Assembly (NCBI GenBank): GCA_003224525.1
Contig: QHZB01000205.1
Span: forward strand, 1-47,546
Reading direction: 5' to 3'
Length of the DNA: 47,546 bases
From: Acidobacteriota bacterium
Lineage (GTDB): Bacteria; Acidobacteriota; Terriglobia; Acidiferrales; UBA7541
Part shown: positions 3,365 to 47,546 of the stretch, one piece after another
Layout: the number at the start of each line of letters is the position of its first letter
How positions within the stretch are numbered: the first letter of the stretch is position 1
Position numbers and translations under genes: made by a program
Notes under the pieces: model-generated
Database searches by the model: none
Seen by the model: the letters and a program-made list of their open reading frames with translations, nothing else
What the model was told of the DNA's origin: nothing

Positions 3365-3631
3365 GCTGCCCTGAGATTACACCCCGGCCCACACCTGTAC
3401 CTGGCAACTCCGTTCCCACGCTAACAGAGCGCCGAGACCGGCGAAAGGCTTTGAACCCTACTGATTACTCGCTCTTTCGCCACATGCGGACGCGGAAGCG
3501 ACGCGCGCTCTTCGGTTTATGGGTGATCGCCAGTGTTGGGCGGCACACATTGCGTGCCTACCGTACCGGCTTTCGTTATACTTTCGATCTGCCCGGAGCG
3601 CGTCGCCTCTGCGGCGCATTGTCCTTCTTCT

Positions 3632-5275
3632 ATGGCTGGAATCAAAAAATCGCTGCCCAGGCGCGTCCCGAGAGCCCAAAGAAAGACGCTCAGCGCGACG
3701 AAAGCCACTCGTGAACTTGAAGAACTGAACCGTATAGGGATGGCTCTTTCCGAAACCCGGGATGTCGAGCAGTTGCTGGACCTGATCCTTAAGAAAGCCA
3801 GAGAAATCACCGCGGCGGATGCCGGCTCACTGTATCTCGTGGAGAAAGGCGGGGTATCCGCGGAGGCTGGGTTGCGTGCTTCGCTGCTACGGTTCAAGCT
3901 GACGCAAAACGACAGCGTACAGTTTCCTTTCAGCGAACACACGCTTCCGCTAACGGAAGATTCCATGGCGGGATATTGCGCGCTGCACGGCGAAGTGATC
4001 GAGCTTGCCGACGCGTATCGCATCCCAAAGGCGCGGCCGTTTCACTTCAATGCCACGTTCGATCAGCAGGCCGGCTACCGCACACGCTCGCTGATCACGC
4101 TTCCAATGAAAAACGGGAAGGGCGAGGTCCTCGGCGTGCTGCAGTTGATCAATTGCAAGCGCAATGCCAAGGCGCGGCTGACCGATTCTGGCGGAGTGCA
4201 GCGCTGGGTGCATCCCTTTCCAGAGCGCGCCGTGAGGCTGGGGTTATCGCTGGCTTCGCAGGCGGCAGTGGCTTACGAGAATTCGAGGTTGTATCGAGAC
4301 ATAGAGAATCTGTTCGATGGATTTGTGAATGCCGCCGTGAAGGCCATCGAACAGCGCGACCCGACGACGTCCGGTCATTCGCAGCGAGTTTGCGAAATGA
4401 CCGTGGCATTGGCCGAAGCGGTGGACCGCGAGCCGCGCGGTCCTTACGGGGATCTGCGGTTTTCCCGGGAACAGATGAAAGAACTGCGCTACGCCGCTTT
4501 GCTGCATGACTTCGGCAAGGTGGGAGTCCGCGAAGAAGTGCTGGTGAAGGCGAAAAAACTCTATCCGCTGCATTTTGTGCGCGTGCTGGACCGCTTCGAC
4601 TACATCCGGCGGGACTTTGAGGCGCGAATCGCGGAGCAGAAAGTGGAAGCGCTGCTTTCGCCGTCCCGGAAACATGCCGCGGAGCGCCTGCGCATGCTCG
4701 ACGAGGAATCGCGCCGGTTGCGCGGCCAACTGGATCGATTCGCGGAATTCATCGCCAAGGCCAACGAGCCAACGCTTCTTCCTTCCGGGGACTTCGAAGT
4801 GCTGAACGAGATTGCGCAGAAAACGTATCGCGATCCGCGCGGGAAGGAGCGTCCCTACCTTTCGTCCGAGGAAGTGCGGTTTCTTTCGATTCCCCGCGGC
4901 AGTCTGGATGCCGATGAGCGCCGTCAGATCGAATCGCACGTGGTGCACGGTTTCAATTTTCTGGCGCAGATTCCCTGGACACCGGAATACCAGGCCATCC
5001 CGGCGATTGCCCGCGCCCACCATGAAAAGGTCAACGGCAAGGGTTACCCGTTCGGCCTGAACTCCGGACAGATCCCGGTGCAAGCCAAAATGATGACGAT
5101 TTGCGACATTTTCGACGCACTCTCCGCGTCGGACCGTCCTTACAAGCGCGCGGTTCCCACCGACCGCGCGCTGGACATTTTGAAACTCTGCGTGCGCGAC
5201 GAAGAGATCGACACTGAACTCTTCCGCATTTTTCTGGACGCTCAGGTTTACCGGCTAGCCGGGAAATCGTCTTAG
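3632..5275 (+). CDS. GAF domain plus HD-GYP phosphodiesterase, with a long insertion
   Basis: A 547-residue soluble protein that probably hydrolyses cyclic di-GMP. A GAF sensor domain lies at about residues 30-230 (TADAGSLYLVE-like core, LITLPMKN). An HD-GYP domain follows: HSQRV near 250, LLHDFGKVG near 290, HHEKVNGKGYP near 463, and the DIFDALSASDRPYKRAVP helix after it. The HD and GYP motifs are intact except that the usual Asp of HHExxDGxGYP is Asn here. The spacing between HD and GYP is about 170 residues; about 60 is usual. The extra segment is charged and helical (see findings). The ATG at 3632 is preferred because homology begins shortly after it, but no ribosome site is visible; an upstream ATG at 3533 encodes an unlikely leader. 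It is divergent from the PP2C unit. Confidence 0.88.
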   Translation: MAGIKKSLPRRVPRAQRKTLSATKATRELEELNRIGMALSETRDVEQLLDLILKKAREITAADAGSLYLVEKGGVSAEAGLRASLLRFKLTQNDSVQFPFSEHTLPLTEDSMAGYCALHGEVIELADAYRIPKARPFHFNATFDQQAGYRTRSLITLPMKNGKGEVLGVLQLINCKRNAKARLTDSGGVQRWVHPFPERAVRLGLSLASQAAVAYENSRLYRDIENLFDGFVNAAVKAIEQRDPTTSGHSQRVCEMTVALAEAVDREPRGPYGDLRFSREQMKELRYAALLHDFGKVGVREEVLVKAKKLYPLHFVRVLDRFDYIRRDFEARIAEQKVEALLSPSRKHAAERLRMLDEESRRLRGQLDRFAEFIAKANEPTLLPSGDFEVLNEIAQKTYRDPRGKERPYLSSEEVRFLSIPRGSLDADERRQIESHVVHGFNFLAQIPWTPEYQAIPAIARAHHEKVNGKGYPFGLNSGQIPVQAKMMTICDIFDALSASDRPYKRAVPTDRALDILKLCVRDEEIDTELFRIFLDAQVYRLAGKSS

Positions 5276-5366
5276 TCTTCATCGCGCATTACTCATTGGC
5301 TCTATACCGGCATCAAGAAACCAAGAGGCGACGGCATCCTCTAAACTAGGGAGAGGTAGGTTTGCC

Positions 5367-6134
5367 TTGCTGACTTATCTTCTTGGACCAATCCTGGCGT
5401 TGTTCCCGCGAAGGTGGCGAAAATTGCTGCCCGCCGGTTCCGCCATGGAGTGCCGCAGGGCGGCGGTCCTCAGCGGGTTTGGGGAAGCGGTGATCGCACT
5501 CATCGCCCTGATATACTGGTATTCGCATTACATGACGCTGATGATGGATCATGCCTTAGACGCGGCCATTACCGGGAAATTGCCCCCGGGAGTGACGGAT
5601 CACGAGATCGGCTTTACTGCGCTGGTGATTTGGGCGACGCATCCGCTGACTTGGCTGCTTGCCTATGCCGGAGTCGAGGGGAGCGTGCGGTTGGTAGGAG
5701 CGGCATTCACGGAGACGAATCTGGGAATTTTTCCTCTGTTCGTTCTGGACAAGGTGATCGGGATGATCACCGGGCAAGGCAAGGAGGAAGCATCGGCAAC
5801 AAAGTATGGCGCGCAGGAAAATTTTTCCTCGTATGTCGGGGCTATTCGAGAGAAGGCGATGGTCAGGGGACTTCCAGAGGTCCCGGATGAACTATGCTTT
5901 AGCGGAAGCGCGCCCGATGAATTCCTTGAAGTTCGTGCGTGCCGGAGAAAGGCAGATTGGAACCCGCCGCGCACGGTGCGCTACCAGGATACCTTTTACA
6001 GGTTGGAAGCGTGTTCCGTAAGGAGCGCGTCGCGGCCGTTTCGCTACACGCTGCGGAAATTGACGGCGGGGGTCATGGGGCGGACCGTGCTGGTCTATTC
6101 GCCCGAGGAAACGCCTGTCCTTGCAAAGAGATGA
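5367..6134 (+). CDS. Uncharacterised membrane protein
   Basis: A 255-residue protein that I do not recognise by function. The start is probably the TTG at 5367, which has GGAGAGG about ten bases upstream; no ATG fits as well. There are hydrophobic segments near residues 1-15, 35-55 and 78-112 (including LIALIYWYSHYMTLMM and ALVIWATHPLTWLLAYAG), then a soluble C-terminal half rich in Arg with two Cys. The long loop EEASATKYGAQENF is polar. It lies 91 bp after the HD-GYP gene on the same strand and could be cotranscribed. The reading frame is clean and codon use matches its neighbours, so I take it as real. A family search would be needed for any role. Confidence 0.7.
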   Translation: MLTYLLGPILALFPRRWRKLLPAGSAMECRRAAVLSGFGEAVIALIALIYWYSHYMTLMMDHALDAAITGKLPPGVTDHEIGFTALVIWATHPLTWLLAYAGVEGSVRLVGAAFTETNLGIFPLFVLDKVIGMITGQGKEEASATKYGAQENFSSYVGAIREKAMVRGLPEVPDELCFSGSAPDEFLEVRACRRKADWNPPRTVRYQDTFYRLEACSVRSASRPFRYTLRKLTAGVMGRTVLVYSPEETPVLAKR

Positions 6135-6744: not shown

Positions 6745-7873
6745 TGCTGGCTTCGCGGGGAAGTGCGAGCGTGCCCCCGGGATCTTCGAAAGGGAGCTCA
6801 GGAACACCCGCGCCGAGCATGGTTTCCAGAGTGTTCTGGGCCCTCTCGAAGAGTTTGTCGGACTCGCTGTAACTTTGCTGGGCGTTCTTCAAATGGGTGC
6901 CCAGAGTTTCGAACTTGTCCGCGAATTTTTCCAGTTGCTTTTCCATTCCGGAAAGGCTTTCCAGCAGGCGTTTGGCATTTTCTTCCATGTGCATACCGCG
7001 AAGGCCCATGGCGATAACACAGAGATGGGCGTAGAGCGTATTGGGCGACACGACGATGACTTTTTTATCGCGGCAGTAGGCATCCAGGGTTTGTCCCTTG
7101 CTGTCTTCGGTCATGAGGAGTTCGTAGTAGACGCTTTCCGAAGGGACGAACATCAACGCGACATCGAGCGTGCCTTCCTCGGGCACGATGTATTTCTTGG
7201 TGATGGCATCGGCATGGCCCTTCACCGCGGTGGCGAAGGCCCGGCGCGCTTCGTCGCCCTCGGCGCTGATCCTGCGATAGGCATCGAGAGGGAACTTCGA
7301 GTCGATGGCCATCAATTTTTTGTCGCGCAGCTTGATCACCACGTCCGCGGCTTCTCCGCTGGAAAAGCGGTATTGCGTTGCGTACTGGGCAGTGGGAAGG
7401 GAGTCTTCGAGCAAGCGCTCCAGCGTCACTTCGCCCAGAGAGCCACGCGACTTAGCGCCGCCCAAAATGCCTTCGAGGGTCTGCGCGGTCTGGGACATCT
7501 GTTTCCCGGCTAGCTGCACTTCGCCGAGCTGCCGCTGAATTTGGCTGATCTGATCGCGGGTGTTCTTGAGTTCGTCGGCCATCTTGGTTTGCGCATCGGA
7601 AGTCATCTGGCCGGTAATCTGGGCGGAGTTCTTGATGGCGTCCTGCAAGGTGGGGGTGACGCCATCGAGGCGCTGTGCGACACTCTTGGCGATGGTTTCT
7701 AGTTGACCGGTGCTGGAGGCCTGCGACGTTGCAATCGTTTGCAGGTCGCGGCGCAATTCGTTCATCTGGGATTCGAGAGCCTCGGCCTTGTGGCGTCCTT
7801 GCGAAGTCTCGAGCGCAAGCCAGAGCACCAGGACGGCCACGAGAATCACGACTCCAATCGAGACTGCGCTCAT
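6728..7873 (-). CDS. rmuC: RmuC-family DNA recombination protein
   Basis: A 381-residue protein with one N-terminal membrane helix (about residues 3-22), a coiled coil (about 30-130) and the RmuC nuclease-like core (about 140-340). Core landmarks are SRGSLGEVTLERLLED, ADVVIKLRDKKLMAIDSKF and FVPSESVYYELL. In Escherichia coli RmuC limits inversions at short inverted repeats; its biochemical role is still poorly defined. It is shorter than the 475-residue E. coli protein, mainly outside the core. The start is the ATG at 7873 with GGAG about six bases upstream. It is a single gene, convergent with the broken gene to its left. Confidence 0.92.
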   Translation of the reverse strand: MSAVSIGVVILVAVLVLWLALETSQGRHKAEALESQMNELRRDLQTIATSQASSTGQLETIAKSVAQRLDGVTPTLQDAIKNSAQITGQMTSDAQTKMADELKNTRDQISQIQRQLGEVQLAGKQMSQTAQTLEGILGGAKSRGSLGEVTLERLLEDSLPTAQYATQYRFSSGEAADVVIKLRDKKLMAIDSKFPLDAYRRISAEGDEARRAFATAVKGHADAITKKYIVPEEGTLDVALMFVPSESVYYELLMTEDSKGQTLDAYCRDKKVIVVSPNTLYAHLCVIAMGLRGMHMEENAKRLLESLSGMEKQLEKFADKFETLGTHLKNAQQSYSESDKLFERAQNTLETMLGAGVPELPFEDPGGTLALPREASIKKGA

Positions 7874-37959: not shown

Positions 37960-40599
37960 TTACTCATAGCGCAACGCAATGATGGGATCCACGCGCATGG
38001 CGCGCCATGCGGGCACCAAACACGCCAGCAGAACTACAAAAATAAGGAAAGTGGCAACGAAAACGAAAGTCAGGGGATCGGAAGCGGTGACGCCGTAAAG
38101 CAGCGAGCGAATCAGCCGCGTGGCGGCCGCCGCCACTACAATGCCGATAGTCAAACCAAGCAAAGCTAGCCGGACGCCCTGCCTGAGCACCAGGCGGACA
38201 ACTTCGAGCGGACGCGCACCGAGAGCCATGCGTATGCCAATTTCGTGCGTACGCTGGGCGACGAACTGCGCCATTACTCCATAGATGCCCGCTGCGGCTA
38301 GAAGCAACGCCAAGCTCGCAAACGCGGTGAGCAACGCCATGTTAAAGCGATGAGGCGCAAAGGTATGCCCAAGACGCTGCTCCATAGTCTCCGGCCCCAG
38401 CAGCGCCATATGGTTGTCGATCGAGGCCATCGTGCTTCGAACCGCAGGGAGGAACGATAAGGGCTCAGAATTGGTGCGCAGGATGATAGCGGCGTCGTAG
38501 TCAGGCATGTTGTCCTGGAGAATTTGCGAGACCGGCAAGTACGCGGTAGGACTGCGATCGCTATTCCACCCGAAATATCGTTCATCGGCAACCACGCCAA
38601 CGACGGTCCACCACGCAGACAGATTGTCCGCCCCTAGTTTGACTCTCAGACCAACGGCGTTCTCGCCGGGGAAAAGCGAGAGCGCAGCGGCTTCATTCAA
38701 AATGACTGCTGGACCTACGCCGTGAACATCGGCACCGGAAAATTCGCGGCCTGCGAGCAGGCGAAGGCGCATGGTTCGAAAGTAATTGGGGCTAATGGGA
38801 TTGTAGACAATGTCCGGAGCGCGGTTGGGATCCATGTCAGGGTGTTCAGAGGTGATGACAGGACCGTCGACCTCCTCGCCGCCTGGAGGGATGGAGTGGG
38901 ACATGGCAACGAAATGCACTCCGGGAATCGCGCTCAAGCGCTCGAGCACGCGGCGGTAGAAGTCTTCGGCTTGCGCAGCTTTCCGGATTTGGGGTGACAG
39001 GTAGAAGGTCAGAAGATTTCGCGAATCGTAACCGGGATCGGCGGAGAGGAGCTTGATAAAGCTGCGCACGGCAAGCCCCGCGCAGGCAAGCAATACGAGC
39101 GACAGCGCGATCTCGGCCACCACAAGAGACTGGCGCACCAAACCGCGCTCAGCTCCGGAGGTCGCATGCGCGCTTCCTTCCTTCAAGCATTCCGCCAGGT
39201 TCACGCGGGAGATCCGCGCAGCGGGAACCAAGCCAAGAAGAATGCTTGCGATGATCAAAATACCGAGCGAAAACAGCAGCACGGGAAGATTAATTTGAAC
39301 TTCTTCCAGCCGCGGCACATCGCCAGGACTAAGAACCCGGAACGCTTGCAATCCGAGATGGCCGGCCAGCAAACCGAGGGCGCATCCAAGAAAACTAAGC
39401 AACACGCTTTCGGTCACGCGCTGCCGCACCAGCCTGCCCACGCTGGCGCCGAGGGCGCTGCGAACCGCAATCTCACCGCGACGTCGCACGCCCTGGGCCA
39501 GGAGCAGGTTGCCGACGTTCGCACAGGCAATAAGGAGGACGAGCCCGACCGCCGCAAGCATGATCAAAAGAGCCTCACGAATGCGATGGCCAACACTGCT
39601 GAGCATGGGGATTACGATGGTGCCTTGCTCGGCGTCGTCCGCGGGGTACTCCTTTTCGAGAGCGCGCGCGATGGAATCCATTTCGTTCTGCGCCTGATGC
39701 AAAGACACGCCTGGCTTAATGCGACCGATCACCGACATGAAATTTTCGCCGCGCGAGGTCTTCTCAAGATTCAGCGGAATGAAAATCTGCGCGTCCCTCA
39801 TCATGACGTAGCGAAAATCGCGGGGCAGGATGCCTACAACTGTGAACGACTGACCGTTGATGGTGAGCGTTCGGCCTACCCATCCCGGGTCACCGCCGAG
39901 GCGCTCCTTCCAGAATGAGTGAGTAATCAACGCAACGCGGTCATTGCCCGTGTGCTCTTCTGGTGCCAGGAAATTGCGGCCGAGAATTGGCGCGACTTGC
40001 AGAACCGATAGAAAATTAGGCGAAACAGCGGCGCCCAAAATATTCTCAGGCTGGTTACCGAACATGACCGTAAAGCCGCGGCCATCGAATCCCGCGAGAA
40101 ATTGAAACTGCCTGGCGCGCGCCCGCCAATCGAGGAAGTTCGGTCCCGAAACGGGCACGGGATGATCGAACCTCGGCGCGATTCGCGCGACGACCACAAG
40201 CTGGTCAGGGTGCGGATAGGGCAGCGGCTGCAAGAGCACGCCGTTCACGATGCTGAAAATGGCGGTGTTCGCACCGATGCCCAGCGCCAGTGTGAGCGCA
40301 GCGACAGCGGTAAAGCCGGGATTTTTGCGCAACATGCGGAAGGCGAATCGCAAATCCTGGAAGAACGTTTCAAGCAGAGGCAGACCGCGCCGGTCGCCGT
40401 AGATTTCTTTCGTTTGCTCGACGCCGCCCAATTTCATGAGGGCTTGGCGACGCGCTTCTGCGGGGCTCATGCCGGCGCGGAGATTGTCTTCGATGTGCAT
40501 TTGGAGATGGCTTTCCATCTCGGCGGCAAGATCCCGGTCGCCCCGTTCTTTGCGGAACAGTTCGCCGAATCGCACAAGCCAAGCACGCAATTGCCTCAC
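37960..40599 (-). CDS. ADOP-type MacB/FtsX permease (second of two)
   Basis: A permease of about 879 residues of the Acidobacterial duplicated orphan permease kind. Order: an N-terminal amphipathic part with ELFRKERGDRDLAAEMESHL and AGMSPAEARRQALMKLGG, then MacB/FtsX-type halves, each with a periplasmic domain and a bundle of helices. Conserved spots are GIGANTAIFSIVNGVLLQPL, LLIACANVGNLLLAQG, and the final RTHEIGIRMALGA and RAMRVDPIIALRYE. No ATPase gene is next to it, as is usual for ADOP. The start is probably the GTG at 40599: GAGG lies six bases upstream and the protein then opens RQLRAWL, in line with MRQLRSL of the upstream paralogue. ATGs at 40605 and 40602 are alternatives. It is the third gene after PadR and ADOP 1. 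Confidence 0.92.
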   Translation of the reverse strand: MRQLRAWLVRFGELFRKERGDRDLAAEMESHLQMHIEDNLRAGMSPAEARRQALMKLGGVEQTKEIYGDRRGLPLLETFFQDLRFAFRMLRKNPGFTAVAALTLALGIGANTAIFSIVNGVLLQPLPYPHPDQLVVVARIAPRFDHPVPVSGPNFLDWRARARQFQFLAGFDGRGFTVMFGNQPENILGAAVSPNFLSVLQVAPILGRNFLAPEEHTGNDRVALITHSFWKERLGGDPGWVGRTLTINGQSFTVVGILPRDFRYVMMRDAQIFIPLNLEKTSRGENFMSVIGRIKPGVSLHQAQNEMDSIARALEKEYPADDAEQGTIVIPMLSSVGHRIREALLIMLAAVGLVLLIACANVGNLLLAQGVRRRGEIAVRSALGASVGRLVRQRVTESVLLSFLGCALGLLAGHLGLQAFRVLSPGDVPRLEEVQINLPVLLFSLGILIIASILLGLVPAARISRVNLAECLKEGSAHATSGAERGLVRQSLVVAEIALSLVLLACAGLAVRSFIKLLSADPGYDSRNLLTFYLSPQIRKAAQAEDFYRRVLERLSAIPGVHFVAMSHSIPPGGEEVDGPVITSEHPDMDPNRAPDIVYNPISPNYFRTMRLRLLAGREFSGADVHGVGPAVILNEAAALSLFPGENAVGLRVKLGADNLSAWWTVVGVVADERYFGWNSDRSPTAYLPVSQILQDNMPDYDAAIILRTNSEPLSFLPAVRSTMASIDNHMALLGPETMEQRLGHTFAPHRFNMALLTAFASLALLLAAAGIYGVMAQFVAQRTHEIGIRMALGARPLEVVRLVLRQGVRLALLGLTIGIVVAAAATRLIRSLLYGVTASDPLTFVFVATFLIFVVLLACLVPAWRAMRVDPIIALRYE

Positions 40600-40657
40600 C
40601 ATCATCCTCGCGACACAGACAGGTTTGAAGACCGGCCACTACAATAACTATTCCTTA

Positions 40658-40741: not shown

Positions 40742-43549
40742 TTATTCGTAACGCAGCGCCACCATGGGATCTACCCGCATAGCCCGCCGTGCGGGGAGCC
40801 AGCCTGCAAACAGTGCCACGGCAATCAGCAGCAGCGAGACTCCCGCAAAGGAAATTGCGTCCATCGGATTCAGACCAAAAAGCATGGCCGAAAGGAGCCG
40901 CGAAATTACCGCCGACACCACGATTCCAATCACAGTTCCAAACAGCATCGGCCGCGCGCTTTCTCCTAACACCAGCCCAAGCACCTGCTCCTGTTGCGCG
41001 CCCAGCGCCATCCGGACACCGATTTCGTGGGTTCGCTCAACGACGCTGTAACCCACCATCCCATAGACACCCAGACAGGCCAGAAACAAGCCGAGCGTGC
41101 CAACAATGCTGGAAAGGATCCCACCGATGCGCGAGATAACGAAGTAAGGGTCAAACGAAACCATCCAGTCGAGGGGCGCGGCAACGGCAGGAAAATTGGC
41201 GTCTATACGCCTGACCGCCCTGCCGAGCAAAGGCAGCAGAGCGGACGTGTTCCCACTGGTGCGTACCAGCAACGTGCTAGTCCACTGGCGGCTCTGCGAG
41301 AGTGGTACATAAATATACGAATCGTCCACCTTGCTCAGAAACAAGCTGCGCACATCGCCTGCCACGCCAATTACCTCGCTGCCTGGAGAAAATGGAACCT
41401 GCTCCCCGGCGAAAGGAGGCCGCGCATCCACTGATCCGATTACCAAGCGCTTGCCGATAGGGTCCTGACCCGGCCAGAAACGCCGCGCCGTGGCTTCGCT
41501 GATGACCACCACAGGAGCTTGGGTGTCGGCCTCTTGGACGGTAAAGCTGCGCCCGTTAACGATAGGAATGCCAAGGGTCTCGAAATAGTTCGGCAGGACA
41601 TAGCTGTAGCCGGTCGTAGGCCGTCTGTTTTCACCCTCGCGATTGGCCGGTGGCTCTGCGTCGGCGGCCAAGACAGCTACAAATCGGTTTCCACCTGAAA
41701 TCGGTGCGCGAGACGCCTGCGTAACCGAAGTGACGCCAGGAAGGCTTGCAATCTCCTCCATGAGTTGCCGGTTGAGCCCAAGCAATCGCGCTTGGCTATA
41801 GCCCATCGCTGGCTCGTACATTTCCAGGGACAGGTGCACAACATGTTTGCTGTCAAATCCGGGATCGACTCGGAGCGCCCGCTGCGAGCCTCGTAGCAGT
41901 AGCGTCGAGTTGATCAGCAGCACGAGACACGCAGCAACCTGGGCAACGATAAGCAAGTCGCGAAGCCGCGACTTGCTCAGTCGCTGTCCGAACATGCTGC
42001 CGTTATCTTTCAGCGCCGCATTGACGTCGGTCCTCAACGCCTGCAACGCCGGAGTCAAACCAAACGTTACACCGGTCAGCAGGGAGATAAGCAGGGTATA
42101 ACCGAAAATGCGAATGTCGGGAGTGACTTGCAATGCGATGGAGCCCCAGTACGAAGGAAGCGCGGAAGCAATTTCCACAATAACGAGGTGCAGCGTCCAC
42201 GAGGCTAGAGGGAGTCCCACGGCGCCAGCGAAAAGAGCGATCAAAGTGCTTTCTATCAGCAACTGTTGTAACAGCCGGCGGCGGCCGGCACCCAGCGAAA
42301 GGCGCACACCGATTTCCCGGCGTCGCGTCGCTGCTCGAGCGAGCAGAAGACTGGCCACATTCGCGCAAGCAATGAGCAAGAGCAGCGCGACGGCACCCAT
42401 CGTCGCGGCTACGATGGGCCACGTGTCCGAATCGAGATGGCCAAACGCACGCTCGCTGACCACTCTCACGCCCGTGTTGCGTTCAACCTCTGGATAAGCC
42501 ACCCGCAACTGTCCTGCCAGAACGTTCAATTCCGCTTCTGCGTCGGGCAGGGAAACACCTGCCTTCAGGTGTCCATATACAACACCCGCGGCTACCTTGC
42601 GGTTCTCCAGGCTCTCGCGTGTGCCGTCGCCTACGAGTGGCCGTGCCGCGACCGGGGCCCAGAGAACGGGCACAGTCGAGAGCGTGCCAAGGTAGTCCAC
42701 AGGCGTCACACCTACGATTGTGAAAGCCACTCGGTTAAGGTGAATCGTGGAGCCTACGACGGCGGGGTTTGAGTGAAACTGACTTTGCCAGAAATTGCCG
42801 CTCAGAACGACCACCGGTGCCGCGCCCAGTTGATCGTCCTCGGGCAAGAACAACCGGCCGGCCGCAGGTTGCGCCCCGAGCAGCCGAAAGTAGTTGCCTG
42901 AGACAAATAAGCAGCTCAGCCGTTGCGCGCTTCCCTGCAGCAACTGCGGCAGATGAAAACCAATCGCGCCTGCCACATGCGCCACGTCTTCCGGGCTGGC
43001 AACGGAAAGGTCAGACGTAGTTACGTGCATTCCACCGCCAAACATCGCTAGGTCGGAGAGAGTTTTGCTGTGGTCGCGATAGTAGAGGTAATCGGGAAAG
43101 GAGAACCCGCCGTGATTCTCTCCCGCCGTGGTGCGGTAAACGCCCACCAAGCGCTCCGGGGTTTTCACAGGCCGCGGCCGGAGAGCAAGCGCGTCAAATG
43201 CGGTGAAGACTGTGGTGTTCACGCCAATGCCGACGGCCAACGCAAGTATGGCCGTCGCTGTAAACCCAAGATTTTTCTGCAGCATCCGAAGCCCATAACG
43301 GATGTCTTGCAGAAATGTTTCAAGGAGAGGAAGTCCCCGGCGCTCACGATAAAGTTCCTTGGTTTGTTCGACGCCACCGAGCTTGATTAGGGCATCGCGC
43401 CGCGCTTGGGCGGCGCTCATGCCGGAGCGCAGATTATCTTCGATATGCATCTGGAGATGGCTGTCCATCTCTGCGGCGAGTTCGCGATCATGCCGGTCTT
43501 TGCGGAACAGCCCAGCGAGCCTGAGGACCAACGAGCGTAGCTGTCTCAT
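40742..43549 (-). CDS. ADOP-type MacB/FtsX permease (first of two)
   Basis: A 935-residue paralogue of the next permease with the same plan: MRQLRSLVLRLAGLFRKD start, EMDSHLQMHIEDNLRSGMS, GIGVNTTVFTAFDALALRP, a long periplasmic domain, LLIACANVASLLLARA and the end RTHEIGVRMALGA and RAMRVDPMVALRYE. The substrate is unknown; related MacB-type systems move peptides, lipids or toxins. The start is the ATG at 43549 with AAGGAG five bases before it and ATGA overlap with the PadR stop, so the two genes are translationally coupled. A longer frame to 43693 runs inside padR and is not used. No ATPase partner is present. Confidence 0.93.
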   Translation of the reverse strand: MRQLRSLVLRLAGLFRKDRHDRELAAEMDSHLQMHIEDNLRSGMSAAQARRDALIKLGGVEQTKELYRERRGLPLLETFLQDIRYGLRMLQKNLGFTATAILALAVGIGVNTTVFTAFDALALRPRPVKTPERLVGVYRTTAGENHGGFSFPDYLYYRDHSKTLSDLAMFGGGMHVTTSDLSVASPEDVAHVAGAIGFHLPQLLQGSAQRLSCLFVSGNYFRLLGAQPAAGRLFLPEDDQLGAAPVVVLSGNFWQSQFHSNPAVVGSTIHLNRVAFTIVGVTPVDYLGTLSTVPVLWAPVAARPLVGDGTRESLENRKVAAGVVYGHLKAGVSLPDAEAELNVLAGQLRVAYPEVERNTGVRVVSERAFGHLDSDTWPIVAATMGAVALLLLIACANVASLLLARAATRRREIGVRLSLGAGRRRLLQQLLIESTLIALFAGAVGLPLASWTLHLVIVEIASALPSYWGSIALQVTPDIRIFGYTLLISLLTGVTFGLTPALQALRTDVNAALKDNGSMFGQRLSKSRLRDLLIVAQVAACLVLLINSTLLLRGSQRALRVDPGFDSKHVVHLSLEMYEPAMGYSQARLLGLNRQLMEEIASLPGVTSVTQASRAPISGGNRFVAVLAADAEPPANREGENRRPTTGYSYVLPNYFETLGIPIVNGRSFTVQEADTQAPVVVISEATARRFWPGQDPIGKRLVIGSVDARPPFAGEQVPFSPGSEVIGVAGDVRSLFLSKVDDSYIYVPLSQSRQWTSTLLVRTSGNTSALLPLLGRAVRRIDANFPAVAAPLDWMVSFDPYFVISRIGGILSSIVGTLGLFLACLGVYGMVGYSVVERTHEIGVRMALGAQQEQVLGLVLGESARPMLFGTVIGIVVSAVISRLLSAMLFGLNPMDAISFAGVSLLLIAVALFAGWLPARRAMRVDPMVALRYE

Positions 43550-43890
43550 GCGGACTCCTTTCCGGGAGCCAGGAACCGCGCCAGGATTTCCGTGGTCTGC
43601 TCCCACTCGCGGGCCTCCTTCTCCAATTGCTTGCGCCCGGCGCGCGTCAGCTTGTAGTATTTGGCTTTGCGGTTGTTGTCGGAGGTGCCCCACTCGGAGG
43701 AAATGTAGCCCTCCTGCTCCAGCTTGAGCAGGCCGGGGTACAGCGTGCCGTAGTTCACCGCCAGCAGGTCGCCACTGGTCTGTTCGATCCGGCGCGCAAT
43801 CCCGTAGCCGTGCAATGGCCCCAGCGCCTGCAAGGTCTTCAGCACCATCAAGGCCAGCGTGCCTTGCCAGACGTCCGCTCGTTCGCCCAT
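43546..43890 (-). CDS. PadR-family transcriptional regulator
   Basis: A 114-residue winged-helix regulator. LALMVLKTLQALGPLHGYGI is the typical PadR helix start, followed by SGDLLAVNYGTLYPGLLKLE in the recognition region and KYYKLTRAGRKQLEKE at the wing and dimer helix. Family members usually repress nearby transporter genes until a ligand binds. The start is the ATG at 43890 with AGGAG about seven bases before it. It is the first gene of the padR-ADOP-ADOP unit, with a palindromic candidate site just upstream that it may bind itself. Confidence 0.95.
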   Translation of the reverse strand: MGERADVWQGTLALMVLKTLQALGPLHGYGIARRIEQTSGDLLAVNYGTLYPGLLKLEQEGYISSEWGTSDNNRKAKYYKLTRAGRKQLEKEAREWEQTTEILARFLAPGKESA

Positions 43891-44123: not shown

Positions 44124-45812
44124 ATGCGTTCCAGCCTGATTCTCAGGTGTGTGTCAGCGGTCTGCGTCACCGCGCTTTTTGCCCTCTTCTGTGCCTCGCC
44201 ATCTCTTCAGGCGCAAGGCGGCGAGCCGCAGTACTTCGCCATTCGGGGGGCCAAAGTCGTCCCCGTTTCCGGGCCGCCCGTCGAAAACGCCACCATTGTC
44301 ATCTCCCGCGGCCTCATCACGGCTATCGGGAAGGACGTCACGATTCCGCCTGAAGCATGGGTCATCGAGGGCCAGGGCCTCACTGTTTACCCAGGCCTGA
44401 TTGATTCGTTCACCGACGTGGGAATTCCTGCCGCTCCTCCGGCGAGTGGCGAAAGCGGCCCGCGACGCCCACAAGAAGGCGCGCGCGGTCCAGAGGACCG
44501 GTCCGCCTCCACGCCGTGGCGCAGTGCGGCGGACGAAGTCAGCCTGAGCGACAAGCGCATCGAAACCTGGCGCAGCGCGGGATTCACCACCGTTATTTCC
44601 GCGCCGCAAGGCGGAATTTTCCCGGGACTGGCGGCGGTGCTGGATCTGGCGGGCGAACGCGCCGGAGATCTGGTGGTGAAATTGCCGGTGGCGATTCCGG
44701 TGGCTTTCCAGACTTCGGGAGGACGCGGCGGCGGGTTTCCCAGTTCCCTCATGGGCGTGCTCGCCTACGTTCACCAGGTCTGGCTGGACACCGAGTGGAG
44801 CACGAAGGCACAGGCCACCTACGAAAAGAATCCCCGCAGCGTGGCGCGGCCCCGTTATGACCGCACGGAAGCCGCGCTCGCCGACGCGCTGGAAGATCAC
44901 GCGCTGGTCTTGATTCCCGCGAACAATTCCGTGCAGCTTCGCCGCGCCCTCGAACTCGTCGATCGCTGGCATGTCAAGGGCGCCATTTACGGCGGCCAGA
45001 TGGCTTATGAAGTCGCTCCGGAAATCGCGGCGAAAAAACTTCCCGTGCTCGTGAATCTCAAGTGGCCCGAAGCCGAGAAAGACGCCGATCCCGAGGACAA
45101 GCCATCGCTCCGAACGCTGCGGTTCCGCGACCGCGCACCGTCTTCGCCGGCGGCGCTGGGCAAAGCCGGCGTCAAGTTTGCGTTTTATTCCGGCGGCATC
45201 GCCGCGCCGAAGGACATCCTGAAGGCCGCGAAGAAATCGATTGACGCGGGCCTTGCTCCGGATGCCGCTCTTCGCGCGCTGACGCTCTCGGCGGCGGAAA
45301 TCTTCGGCGTCGCCGACCGCCTGGGCTCCATCGAAAACGGAAAGATCGCCAATCTCATCGTCACCGACGGCGATCTCTTCGAGGAAAAAACGAAGATCAA
45401 ATTGGTTTTTGCCGACGGACACAGGTTTGCGGTTCGCGAGCCGGAGAAGCCCAAGGAGCCGCCGAAAGGGGACATCAGCGGAAAATGGAAGCTTTCCTAC
45501 ACCACGCCCGATGGTCCCGAAGAATCCATCGCTGACCTCGCCATGGACAAGGACGGCACGATCTCCGGCAGCCTCACCAGCAAGCGCGGCACCGCCTCGC
45601 TCATCAGCGGATACTTGAGCGTGGACAAATTCAGCTTCACCATCAACATTCCGCTCGAAGGATCTCCCGCGGACGTCACTTTCTCGGGAACTTTTGATGG
45701 AACTTCCTTGAAGGGCAGCATCAGCGTGCATGGTATTTCGCTCGACTTTACCGGCGTCAAACCCACCACCAATTCATTCGCTTCAACCGCCGTGCTAGGA
45801 GGTGCCCAGTGA
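44124..45812 (+). CDS. Exported amidohydrolase-fold protein lacking metal ligands
   Basis: A 562-residue exported protein. A signal peptide (SAVCVTALFALFCASPSLQAQ) is followed by an amidohydrolase-type fold. At the place where active members have a His-X-His pair after PGLID, this protein reads YPGLIDSFTDVG. The later metal His regions are also changed (IPANNSVQL and GGQMAYEV where the next gene has HSHCYRED and FQHVLEGYKV), so it is probably not a metal hydrolase. The TIM-barrel tail motif IFGVADRLGSIENGKIANL is kept. About 110 extra C-terminal residues form a beta-rich domain (GDISGKWKLSYTTPDGPEES). The start has GAGGAG seven bases before the ATG. It is first in a run of three such genes joined by GTGA overlaps. 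The role is unknown. Confidence 0.85.
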   Translation: MRSSLILRCVSAVCVTALFALFCASPSLQAQGGEPQYFAIRGAKVVPVSGPPVENATIVISRGLITAIGKDVTIPPEAWVIEGQGLTVYPGLIDSFTDVGIPAAPPASGESGPRRPQEGARGPEDRSASTPWRSAADEVSLSDKRIETWRSAGFTTVISAPQGGIFPGLAAVLDLAGERAGDLVVKLPVAIPVAFQTSGGRGGGFPSSLMGVLAYVHQVWLDTEWSTKAQATYEKNPRSVARPRYDRTEAALADALEDHALVLIPANNSVQLRRALELVDRWHVKGAIYGGQMAYEVAPEIAAKKLPVLVNLKWPEAEKDADPEDKPSLRTLRFRDRAPSSPAALGKAGVKFAFYSGGIAAPKDILKAAKKSIDAGLAPDAALRALTLSAAEIFGVADRLGSIENGKIANLIVTDGDLFEEKTKIKLVFADGHRFAVREPEKPKEPPKGDISGKWKLSYTTPDGPEESIADLAMDKDGTISGSLTSKRGTASLISGYLSVDKFSFTINIPLEGSPADVTFSGTFDGTSLKGSISVHGISLDFTGVKPTTNSFASTAVLGGAQ

Positions 45813-47254
45813 AGAAATCATCTGCATTCTTCACCAACGCAAAGCGCCTCCGATTCCTTAACCTCCTTTATCTCCTTTATTTCCTTTACCTCCCTCTGGC
45901 GGCCGCTGCCACGCCTCCCGACTCGCCCGCCGTCATCGTGATTCGAAATGCCACCATCCTCACCGTCTCTCATGGAACCATCGAGCACGGCTCCATCCTT
46001 ATTAGAGATGGCAAAATCGCCGAAGTCGGCCCGTCCATCAGCGCGCCGAAAGACGCTCAGGTGATCGACGCCGCGGGGCAATTCGTCATGCCCGGCATTA
46101 TCGACTGCCATTCGCACATCGCCGCGGAGAGCATCAACGAGGGCAGCGTTTCCGTTTCCTCGATGGTGAATATGGCGGAGATCTTAAATCCGGACGATAT
46201 CGACATCTATCGTGATTTGGCGGGCGGAGTCACGGCCGCGAACATTCTTCACGGTTCCGCCAATTCCATCGGCGGACAGACGCTGGTCATCAAGCTTCGC
46301 TGGGGCCAGCCTGCTGCGAAGCTTCCGTTCGAAGGAGCTCTTCCCGGCATCAAGTTCGCACTCGGAGAAAATCCCAAGCGTTCGAACTTCAGTATCCCGG
46401 GTCAGCCCCGGAGGTATCCTGCCACGCGCATGGGCGTCGAAGAGACGATTCGCGGAGCGTTTAGTGAAGCCCGCGACTACAAGAAGACCTGGGATGAGTA
46501 CAATAAGCGCTTCGCCGCCGGTGAAAAGAATCTCATTCCGCCGCGCCGCGATCTGCGCCTCGAGCCGCTTGTCGAAGTGCTGGAGGGCAAGCGCTACGTT
46601 CACTCGCATTGCTACCGCGAGGATGAAATCCTGATGCTCCTCCGCGTTGCGAAAGAGTTCGGCTTCAAAGTCCGTACCTTTCAGCATGTTCTCGAAGGCT
46701 ATAAAGTCGCCGATGAACTGGCTGCTGCGGGAGTGGGCGCTTCCACTTTTTCCGACTGGTGGGCCTACAAAGTGGAAGCCTACGACGCGATTCCGTACAA
46801 CGCGGCGCTGATGACCCGCCGCGGCGTGGTGGTGTCCATCAATTCCGACGACGCCGAAGAAGCCACGCACCTGAATCAGGAAGCCGCCAAGAGCATGAAG
46901 TTCGGCGGCCTCTCGCACGACGAAGCGCTGAAGATGGTCACGTTGAATCCGGCGATGCAGCTCGGCATCGACAAGCGCGTTGGCACGATTGATGTCGGAA
47001 AAGACGCCGACCTGGCGATTTACAATCGCGACCCCCTGAGCGCGTACGCCGTCGTGCAGAAGACCCTGATCGATGGCCGCGTTTTCTTCGACCGTCAGCG
47101 CGATATCGCCGAACGCTCCGAGCGCGAGAAGGAAAAGAAAGCGCTCATCGACAAATTTAGGAAAGCCGCGGAGAAGAAGCCGGAAGAAAAACCCAAGCCT
47201 CCTCAATCGAGCGGCATCGACTCGGCGGCCGTTCTGCCCGGGGGTGCACTGTGA
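45809..47254 (+). CDS. Exported amidohydrolase with intact metal site
   Basis: A 481-residue exported imidazolonepropionase-like amidohydrolase. The leader LNLLYLLYFLYLPLAAAAT precedes the barrel. Metal ligands look complete: CHSH after MPGIID, a His in VHSHCYRED, a His in TFQHVLEGYK and Asp in INSDDAEEA. It should cleave C-N or related bonds; the substrate cannot be read, though secreted dipeptidase- or prolidase-like action is common in this family. The start is the GTG at 45809, which overlaps the TGA of the previous gene (GTGA), with AGGAGG just upstream. The end overlaps the next gene in the same way. It is the only clearly active-looking member of the trio. Confidence 0.9.
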   Translation: MKKSSAFFTNAKRLRFLNLLYLLYFLYLPLAAAATPPDSPAVIVIRNATILTVSHGTIEHGSILIRDGKIAEVGPSISAPKDAQVIDAAGQFVMPGIIDCHSHIAAESINEGSVSVSSMVNMAEILNPDDIDIYRDLAGGVTAANILHGSANSIGGQTLVIKLRWGQPAAKLPFEGALPGIKFALGENPKRSNFSIPGQPRRYPATRMGVEETIRGAFSEARDYKKTWDEYNKRFAAGEKNLIPPRRDLRLEPLVEVLEGKRYVHSHCYREDEILMLLRVAKEFGFKVRTFQHVLEGYKVADELAAAGVGASTFSDWWAYKVEAYDAIPYNAALMTRRGVVVSINSDDAEEATHLNQEAAKSMKFGGLSHDEALKMVTLNPAMQLGIDKRVGTIDVGKDADLAIYNRDPLSAYAVVQKTLIDGRVFFDRQRDIAERSEREKEKKALIDKFRKAAEKKPEEKPKPPQSSGIDSAAVLPGGAL

Positions 47255-47546
47255 AGACCACATCCATCATTCTCCGTATTGCCCTGGTCTTCGCCGCGGC
47301 CGGCGCTTTGCCTGGTCTGGCATTCGCGCAATCGCAGCCCTCCACCACCTACGCTCTAACCCACGCGAAAATTTTCACGCTTGCAGGAAGCACCATCGAA
47401 GACGGCACGCTTATCATTCGCGATGGAAAAATCGCGGCGGTTGGCGTCGGTTTGGACGTCCCCGCGGGGGCCCGGGTGATCGACGCAAAAGGGCTACAGA
47501 TCTACCCGGGAATCTTCGACTCGATTACCCAGATGGGTTTGCGGGA
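47251..47546 (+). CDS. Third exported amidohydrolase-fold protein (partial)
   Basis: The first 98 codons are visible; the gene runs off the window. A signal peptide (IALVFAAAGALPGLAFAQ) and the N-terminal beta part (ALTHAKIFTLAG, GTLIIRDGKIAAVG) match the other two. The start is a GTG at 47251, again overlapping the previous stop as GTGA. In place of His-X-His it has YPGIFDSITQMG, so the first metal site is missing, as in the first gene. The remaining ligands lie outside the window. Confidence 0.85.
   Translation, partial: MKTTSIILRIALVFAAAGALPGLAFAQSQPSTTYALTHAKIFTLAGSTIEDGTLIIRDGKIAAVGVGLDVPAGARVIDAKGLQIYPGIFDSITQMGLR

Follow-up and report, generated by a model that had tools for sequence, protein, structure and literature searches.

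Why would a bacterium keep two degenerate amidohydrolases beside an intact one? The question is raised by three coupled genes at the end of a 47,546-nucleotide contig of an Acidobacteriota bacterium (QHZB01000205.1, assembly GCA_003224525.1), the whole of which was analysed and is referred to here as the window. Gene 1 (g1), gene 2 (g2) and gene 3 (g3) encode related proteins of the amidohydrolase fold, and the complete metal site is found in g2. At almost every locus examined, an active member of this family is linked to one or two degenerate members, often by outright fusion, and the recurrence of such linked sets in several phyla points to an undescribed complex of one working and two non-working subunits. 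We consider it probable that the three genes specify an exported hetero-oligomeric hydrolase in which the products of g1 and g3 are pseudoenzyme subunits of the g2 product. The features needed at the outset are these:

44124..45812, + strand: g1, amidohydrolase-fold pseudoenzyme, putatively exported, 562 amino acids, ATG 44124, TGA 45812
45809..47254, + strand: g2, catalytic amidohydrolase, putatively exported, 481 amino acids, GTG 45809, TGA 47254, start overlapping the g1 stop
47251..47546, + strand: g3, initial 98 codons, amidohydrolase-fold pseudoenzyme, putatively exported, GTG 47251, continued on C404:1-942 (L009)
44124..44213, + strand: signal-peptide-like N-terminus of g1, with the stretch VCVTALFALFC (mean Kyte-Doolittle hydropathy 2.7)

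Three coupled genes and a contig end

An earlier note, made from the letters of the window, had described GTGA overlaps at both joins, and the frame coordinates confirm them at 45809-45812 (g1/g2) and 47251-47254 (g2/g3). Each gene also begins with a signal-like hydrophobic stretch of its own, as had been proposed, the 11-residue Kyte-Doolittle maxima being 2.7 (g1), 2.0 (g2) and 2.6 (g3) by hydropathy only. The window is an entire contig (C265) whose last base is 47546, so that g3 is broken off after 98 codons; the triplet that the note had read is present, its third member having covered just these initial codons. In the same genome, contig C404 opens with a 313-amino-acid open frame, which is taken as the rest of g3 because of the spacing in close relatives: the window end corresponds to base 7813 and the start of C404 to base 7920 in L019, with 106 bases between, the spacing is the same in L026, and the positions in L020 are 7744 and 7851. 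Searching the source genome with a g2 profile gives one match at an expect value (E) <= 1e-60.

One intact metal site among three

Matches of g2 to the Pfam families Amidohydro_1 (62.4 bits) and Amidohydro_3 (75 bits) make it a member of the superfamily. The product of g1 scores 41.4 bits against Amidohydro_1 (cut-off 25, E 1.4e-10) and 24.1 bits against Amidohydro_3, under the cut-off of 29.7; the 98-residue fragment of g3 has no Amidohydro match, which is supplied by the continuation on the second contig (C404:604-870, 46.9 bits).

Catalytic amidohydrolases follow a rule of an HxH motif on strand 1 and later His, His and Asp ligands. The candidate metal-site residues of g2 are H101-x-H103, K162, K182, H267, H293 and D347, and in a domain alignment of 81 g2, 69 g1 and 77 g3 rows H101, H103, H267, H293, D347 and K182 are invariant in all 81 g2 rows, which makes the catalytic ligand set complete. 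The columns of H101, H103, H267, H293 and D347 we take to be the metal ligands from knowledge of the family. K162 is present in 80 of the 81 rows, its place being taken by R, Q or H in certain actives elsewhere, and H265 is probably not a ligand because His stands there in just 63 of the 81.

46109..46117, + strand: H101-S-H103 metal pair of g2 (81/81 g2 rows)
46352..46354, + strand: K182 of g2, candidate bridging ligand, an inferred role (81/81 g2 rows)
46607..46609, + strand: H267 of g2, presumed strand-5 metal ligand by family knowledge (81/81 g2 rows)
46685..46687, + strand: H293 of g2, presumed strand-6 metal ligand by family knowledge (81/81 g2 rows)
46847..46849, + strand: D347 of g2, presumed strand-8 metal ligand by family knowledge (81/81 g2 rows)
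44403..44417, + strand: D-S-F-T-D of g1, in place of D-x-H-x-H
47524..47532, + strand: I-T-Q of g3, in place of H-x-H

Opposite H101, H103, K162, K182, H267, H293 and D347 of g2, the residues of g1 are F, D, D, P, P, G and G. The remainder of g3 on C404 reads LLVFADRSREI, MILAGGSEAYKL and FAFASFDNS opposite H267, H293 and D347, and F, G and F stand in these columns in the aligned g3 of L020, a close relative. The claim that only the middle gene keeps the full ligand set, g1 having lost every ligand that can be placed and g3 its first metal pair, is thus borne out, with five of five ligands in g2, and none of the 69 g1 rows or 77 g3 rows of the alignment carries the full set.

The same division runs through 180 loci, composed of groups of 80, 20, 60 and 20 with two repeats (L128 = L088, L156 = L067). 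Among the 80 best relatives every g2 domain has all five ligands (80/80), and the scorable g1 (67) and g3 (77) domains all have two or fewer. Over the 180 loci, 181 of 183 g2-type domains have five of five, and the 282 scorable partners (116 g1, 166 g3) keep between none and three, with one single three (L103); domains of fewer than 200 residues were left out of this scoring, and 13 partners (4 g1, 9 g3) are gapped at a ligand column. The two g2-type exceptions are the domain of L196, which is without its end, and L110:4409-5668, a degenerate partner profiled as g2.

The outer proteins might hold a full metal site elsewhere, a possibility the earlier note had raised as a check. Such a site is unlikely in g1 because its 69 rows contain no conserved His or Cys and, at the 90% level, just two conserved acidic columns, D94 and D222. 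The 77 rows of g3 likewise contain no conserved His or Cys, but here such a site may exist: three acids, E83, D92 and E95, are present in 77/77 rows in the loop after strand 1. R339 is kept in g3 too, as is a conserved tail at the C-terminus (residues numbered as in the trimmed row of L020).

Linkage and fusion across phyla

A contig scan returned at least 589 pattern matches, 549 of those listed encoding a g2 relative, and the best 80 were kept, mostly from Acidobacteriota, Gemmatimonadota, Bacteroidota and Planctomycetota. These 80 loci, like the 60 discussed below, are the best-scoring ones and therefore lean towards the triplet. g3 stands behind g2 in 79 of the 80, and g1, whole or partial, before g2 in 73, the remaining seven having at most 413 bases ahead of the g2 domain. 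Fusion of g1 with g2 is the commonest architecture (38 loci), followed by unfused genes (27, and two more in which a partner is split over frames, L025 and L027, with g3 and g1 in two frames), g2 followed by g3 only (6), fusion of g2 with g3 (5, one with a repeated match to the g1 tail), a single triple fusion (L075, Planctomycetota) and g2 alone in one locus (L076, where g2 lies at the contig start and no g3 follows in 5991 bases downstream). A four-base start/stop overlap is possible at 18 of 34 g1-g2 joins and 46 of 72 g2-g3 joins. The search for the gene order elsewhere, which had been set as a check on the locus, thus finds it across phyla, with 1-2, 2-3 and 1-2-3 fusions.

Within the Acidobacteriota, the g2 profile matches (E <= 1e-60) in 96 of 199 sampled genomes, g3 in 97 and g1 in 98, counts which are not independent since the profiles cross-match each other's genes, so that the evidence lies in adjacency. 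All of 20 loci chosen among the lower-scoring acidobacterial matches have an active beside a degenerate member, mostly as two genes or two domains, and four genomes (G062, G134, G151, G167) show the order g2-g3-g1, still adjacent. Three active/degenerate pairs in tandem, the last of them fused, occupy L110 (G006:C4, 3170-10870). In the Bacteroidota, the phylum of Rufibacter, 117 of 198 genomes have a g2 match (E <= 1e-50), as do 36 of 299 in the Pseudomonadota, the phylum of Piscinibacter. The 60 best loci of these two phyla all have a g2 with five of five ligands together with a partner, which is g3-type in 56, a downstream partner scored as g1-type in L135, and a fused g1 only in three; L169, L174 and L184 have no g3 within a short flank. 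Twenty further loci have an active g2 with an adjacent g3 in 19 cases, the other being L196, a truncated g2 fused to g1 with no g3. This last (G507:C2, 5953-13548) is a 2531-residue frame in which the g2 match ends early and a long unassigned part follows; a chimera and a new type of fusion are both conceivable.

Four relatives from Bacillota and Actinomycetota (L119, L121, L122, L125) appear solitary, having neither a signal-like N-terminus nor a partner in the fetched 8 kilobases; L122 has no second match at E <= 1e-15 in its 2.6-megabase record, and the plasmids that carry L119 and L125 give a single match apiece. Two proteobacterial matches of the same search (L120, L124) do possess a signal-like segment, together with a degenerate partner, and the seventh, L123, is a broken triplet: on this Hymenobacter volaticus plasmid (2293-6493), g1 and g2 are spread over several short frames that overlap, and the g3 behind them occupies a single frame. 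The solitary relatives, a small sample of four records, fit a change from homomer to heteromer upon export.

Selection and descent

Comparison of the window with three close relatives gives ratios of non-synonymous to synonymous substitution (dN/dS) of 0.12-0.17 in g1 and 0.07-0.14 in g2, and the part of g3 on C404 has 0.07-0.11. Purifying selection acts on each of the three genes in this species group, and the degenerate ones are therefore maintained. In a tree of 109 rows, which has long branches and was midpoint-rooted for drawing only, g1, g2 and g3 each form one group (Shimodaira-Hasegawa-like approximate likelihood ratio test support 100, 99 and 99), and 23 partners from pairs group with g1 and g3 at a support of 88, beside five actives. 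This pattern is as would be expected from one ancient duplication followed by the split of g1 and g3, a history which the long branches, the modest support and the position of those five actives make no more than possible. The one to three ligands left in some partners would fit gradual loss.

Nearest structures and predicted models

The closest solved relative of g2 is 3ooq, an amidohydrolase of Thermotoga maritima (phmmer E 5.8e-55, residues 43-430). It is also the best match of g1 in the Protein Data Bank (PDB; phmmer E 1e-17, residues 40-438), and it is on this sequence match that the putative fold of g1 is assigned. Like g2, 3ooq has D-x-H-x-H and then His and Asp motifs in the alignment; its entry holds 10 chains of a single sequence and, unlike g2, it leaves no space for a signal peptide, since the alignment begins at its residue 7.

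AlphaFold2 models were made of two natural fusions, g1=g2 from L045 and g2=g3 from L042, on family alignments of 92 and 53 rows. Among the alignments made, A1 and A4 are selected subsets of the available rows. Both models reach a predicted template modelling score (pTM) of 0.89, with a mean predicted local distance difference test score of 88.9 for L045 and 89.3 for L042. For domains of equal size, such a pTM would be hard to reach without confident relative placement, as read from the global score. Besides linkers and chain ends, the lower-confidence blocks of g2 are mostly the conserved loops NEG, GENPKR-TRMG and FSDWWAYK-IPYN, the corresponding blocks being the invariant-acid loop in g3 and an insert rich in glycine in g1. 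At a guess, the conserved loops may become ordered once substrate or the missing third subunit is in place.

A structural search with the L045 model, whose listed matches cover the g2 half only, returns 3ooq with a VIA Z of 42.3 over 363 amino acids at 37% identity and, as the next match, isoaspartyl dipeptidase at Z 23.0. The isoaspartyl, Xaa-Pro and Arg/Lys dipeptidases (1po9, 3feq, 3mtw) share the fold of this half at Z 22-23 with 19-22% identity, far under 3ooq, and their substrates are not transferable to g2. Among the 25 NCBIfam equivalog models listed for each of g1, g2 and g3 (of 42, 80 and 40 matched), none reaches its cut-off; the best for g2, in a set including NagA, HutI and Xaa-Pro dipeptidase, is 83.3 bits against a cut-off of 391.

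A probable hetero-oligomeric hydrolase and its alternatives

In the reading we prefer, g1 to g3 would encode one hydrolase of the amidohydrolase superfamily, located in the periplasm or envelope and acting as a hetero-oligomer with g2 as the sole metal-dependent catalytic subunit. g1 and g3, as ancient paralogs that lost the metal site, would be retained as non-catalytic subunits docking on g2, where they would take the place of identical neighbours in a homo-oligomeric ancestor and probably stabilise g2 or order its substrate loops, and g2 would act outside the cytoplasm on an amide or peptide that is small and polar. From the fusions, the linkage and the AlphaFold models we infer physical association of the three products, and the same evidence supports, as far as predicted models go, the proposal of the earlier note that the dead copies are non-catalytic subunits beside an active one; the docking of g1 and g3 on g2 is itself a prediction. 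We presume that the enzyme sits in the periplasm, that it hydrolyses such a substrate and that its dead subunits serve in folding, specificity or regulation. A bolder step, plausible though somewhat less likely than not, is that upon export the lineage passed from homo-oligomer to obligate heteromer, with interface and pocket loops of the dead sisters (for instance the g3 loop that holds the invariant E83, D92 and E95) completing the active site of the one catalytic subunit.

Other explanations of the dead copies fare less well. Plain tandem duplication, with g1 and g3 decaying and functionless, would suit the one to three ligands left in some partners and the general frequency of tandem paralogs; it was rejected on dN/dS and the fusions, and with purifying selection on g1 and g3 and conservation across phyla we give it next to no credence. 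The outer genes might instead encode independent periplasmic binding or scavenging proteins, co-expressed with g2 and outside any common complex, whose old pocket binds the substrate or product of g2. The invariant E83, D92, E95 and R339 of g3 could line such a pocket, and the signal-like N-terminus is separate in each gene; however, the three kinds of fusion and the confident models of both double fusions favour contact, and we regard this explanation as unlikely. Less likely again is that g1 and g3 are themselves catalytic, by way of some other, non-canonical active site such as the acid cluster of g3, an idea that draws on the three invariant acids and on a PyrC paralog without zinc residues, reported with dihydroorotase activity in an excerpt of PMC2770081, but which has to contend with the absence of conserved His or Cys in g1, where D94 and D222 are the conserved acidic columns, and with the differences among partner lineages in which ligands were lost.

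The hetero-oligomeric hydrolase has points against it as well. Given the reported activity of the PyrC paralog just cited from part of PMC2770081, loss of the canonical ligands does not prove inactivity, and another metal could be bound by the three invariant acids of g3. Fusion and tight linkage equally fit coordinated expression without contact, and the predicted docking is seen by the global scores of two fusion models, with no decoy pair as control. The best or a strong g1 match lies on another contig than g2 in G025, G035, G039 and G098, and a strong g1 match lies on a contig without g2 in G080 and G182, several of these off-contig matches being short or end pieces. With five actives standing beside the partners in the tree, a single origin of the dead partners is not shown. 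Lastly, the neighbouring genes show no consistent pathway: among neighbours of the 80 relatives no family occurs in more than 8 loci, the commonest being the permease family that is also upstream in the window (six Acidobacteriota and two Gemmatimonadetes loci), and among those of 20 proteobacterial loci none occurs in more than 3. Directly upstream of the pair, Qipengyuania (L120) and a second proteobacterial genome (L215, L143) carry an oligopeptide:H+ symporter, which was found at no other locus among L019-L225, where flanks are often short; the adjoining symporter gives a faint hint of a peptide substrate.

The g1 tail and flanking genes

45456..45809, + strand: beta-rich C-terminal domain of g1, about residues 445-562, beta content read from sequence

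This domain has no Pfam match, its best PDB match has an E of 0.98, and a second copy was not found in the source genome; many g1 relatives stop short of it. In L064 (Planctomycetota, 3485-5863) there are two matches to the C-terminal part of the g1 profile, as if the beta domain were repeated. Upstream of the triplet, the - strand carries two ADOP family duplicated permeases (37960-40605 and 40742-43555; NCBIfam TIGR03434, each scoring above the cut-off) along with a PadR regulator (43546-43890; TIGR03433, padR_acidobact). Right after g3, C404 (L009) has a frame at 1059-2615 whose 518-residue product begins in a signal-like manner; a Pfam search with this product gives nothing above cut-off, and its relatives lie behind the triplet in seven close relatives.

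Parallels and significance

Phrase searches of an open-access full-text library brought up, among the papers listed, no description of such a linked set of active and dead amidohydrolases. The best comparisons come from elsewhere, one of them from AdoMetDC, an enzyme family unrelated to amidohydrolases. In the AdoMetDC-prozyme system of Trypanosoma, according to an excerpt of PMC5201418, a dead paralog activates its active sister via heterodimerisation, as the dead members here might do; unlike the triplet, the system is eukaryotic and has one dead partner rather than two. PyrC' of the Pseudomonas aspartate transcarbamoylase is, in the available part of PMC2770081, a dihydroorotase relative without the conserved zinc residues, and a title cited there has it required for holoenzyme assembly; its partner, unlike that of g1 and g3, is a transcarbamoylase and not an active amidohydrolase paralog, and the two are likened by description only. 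Fungal CAD has an inactive dihydroorotase-like domain without metal, as tabulated in a portion of PMC12524618.

Pairs and triplets, two gene orders and fusions of three kinds occur among the loci described here. Provided that the complex exists, these loci would form a natural series, running from single genes to triplets, in which to ask why an enzyme comes to need dead sisters, and proteins annotated merely as 'amidohydrolase' or 'amidohydrolase family protein' would gain a role. Should the obligate heteromer also prove true, the family would be a widespread two-tier system, its members either solitary and cytoplasmic or partnered and exported.

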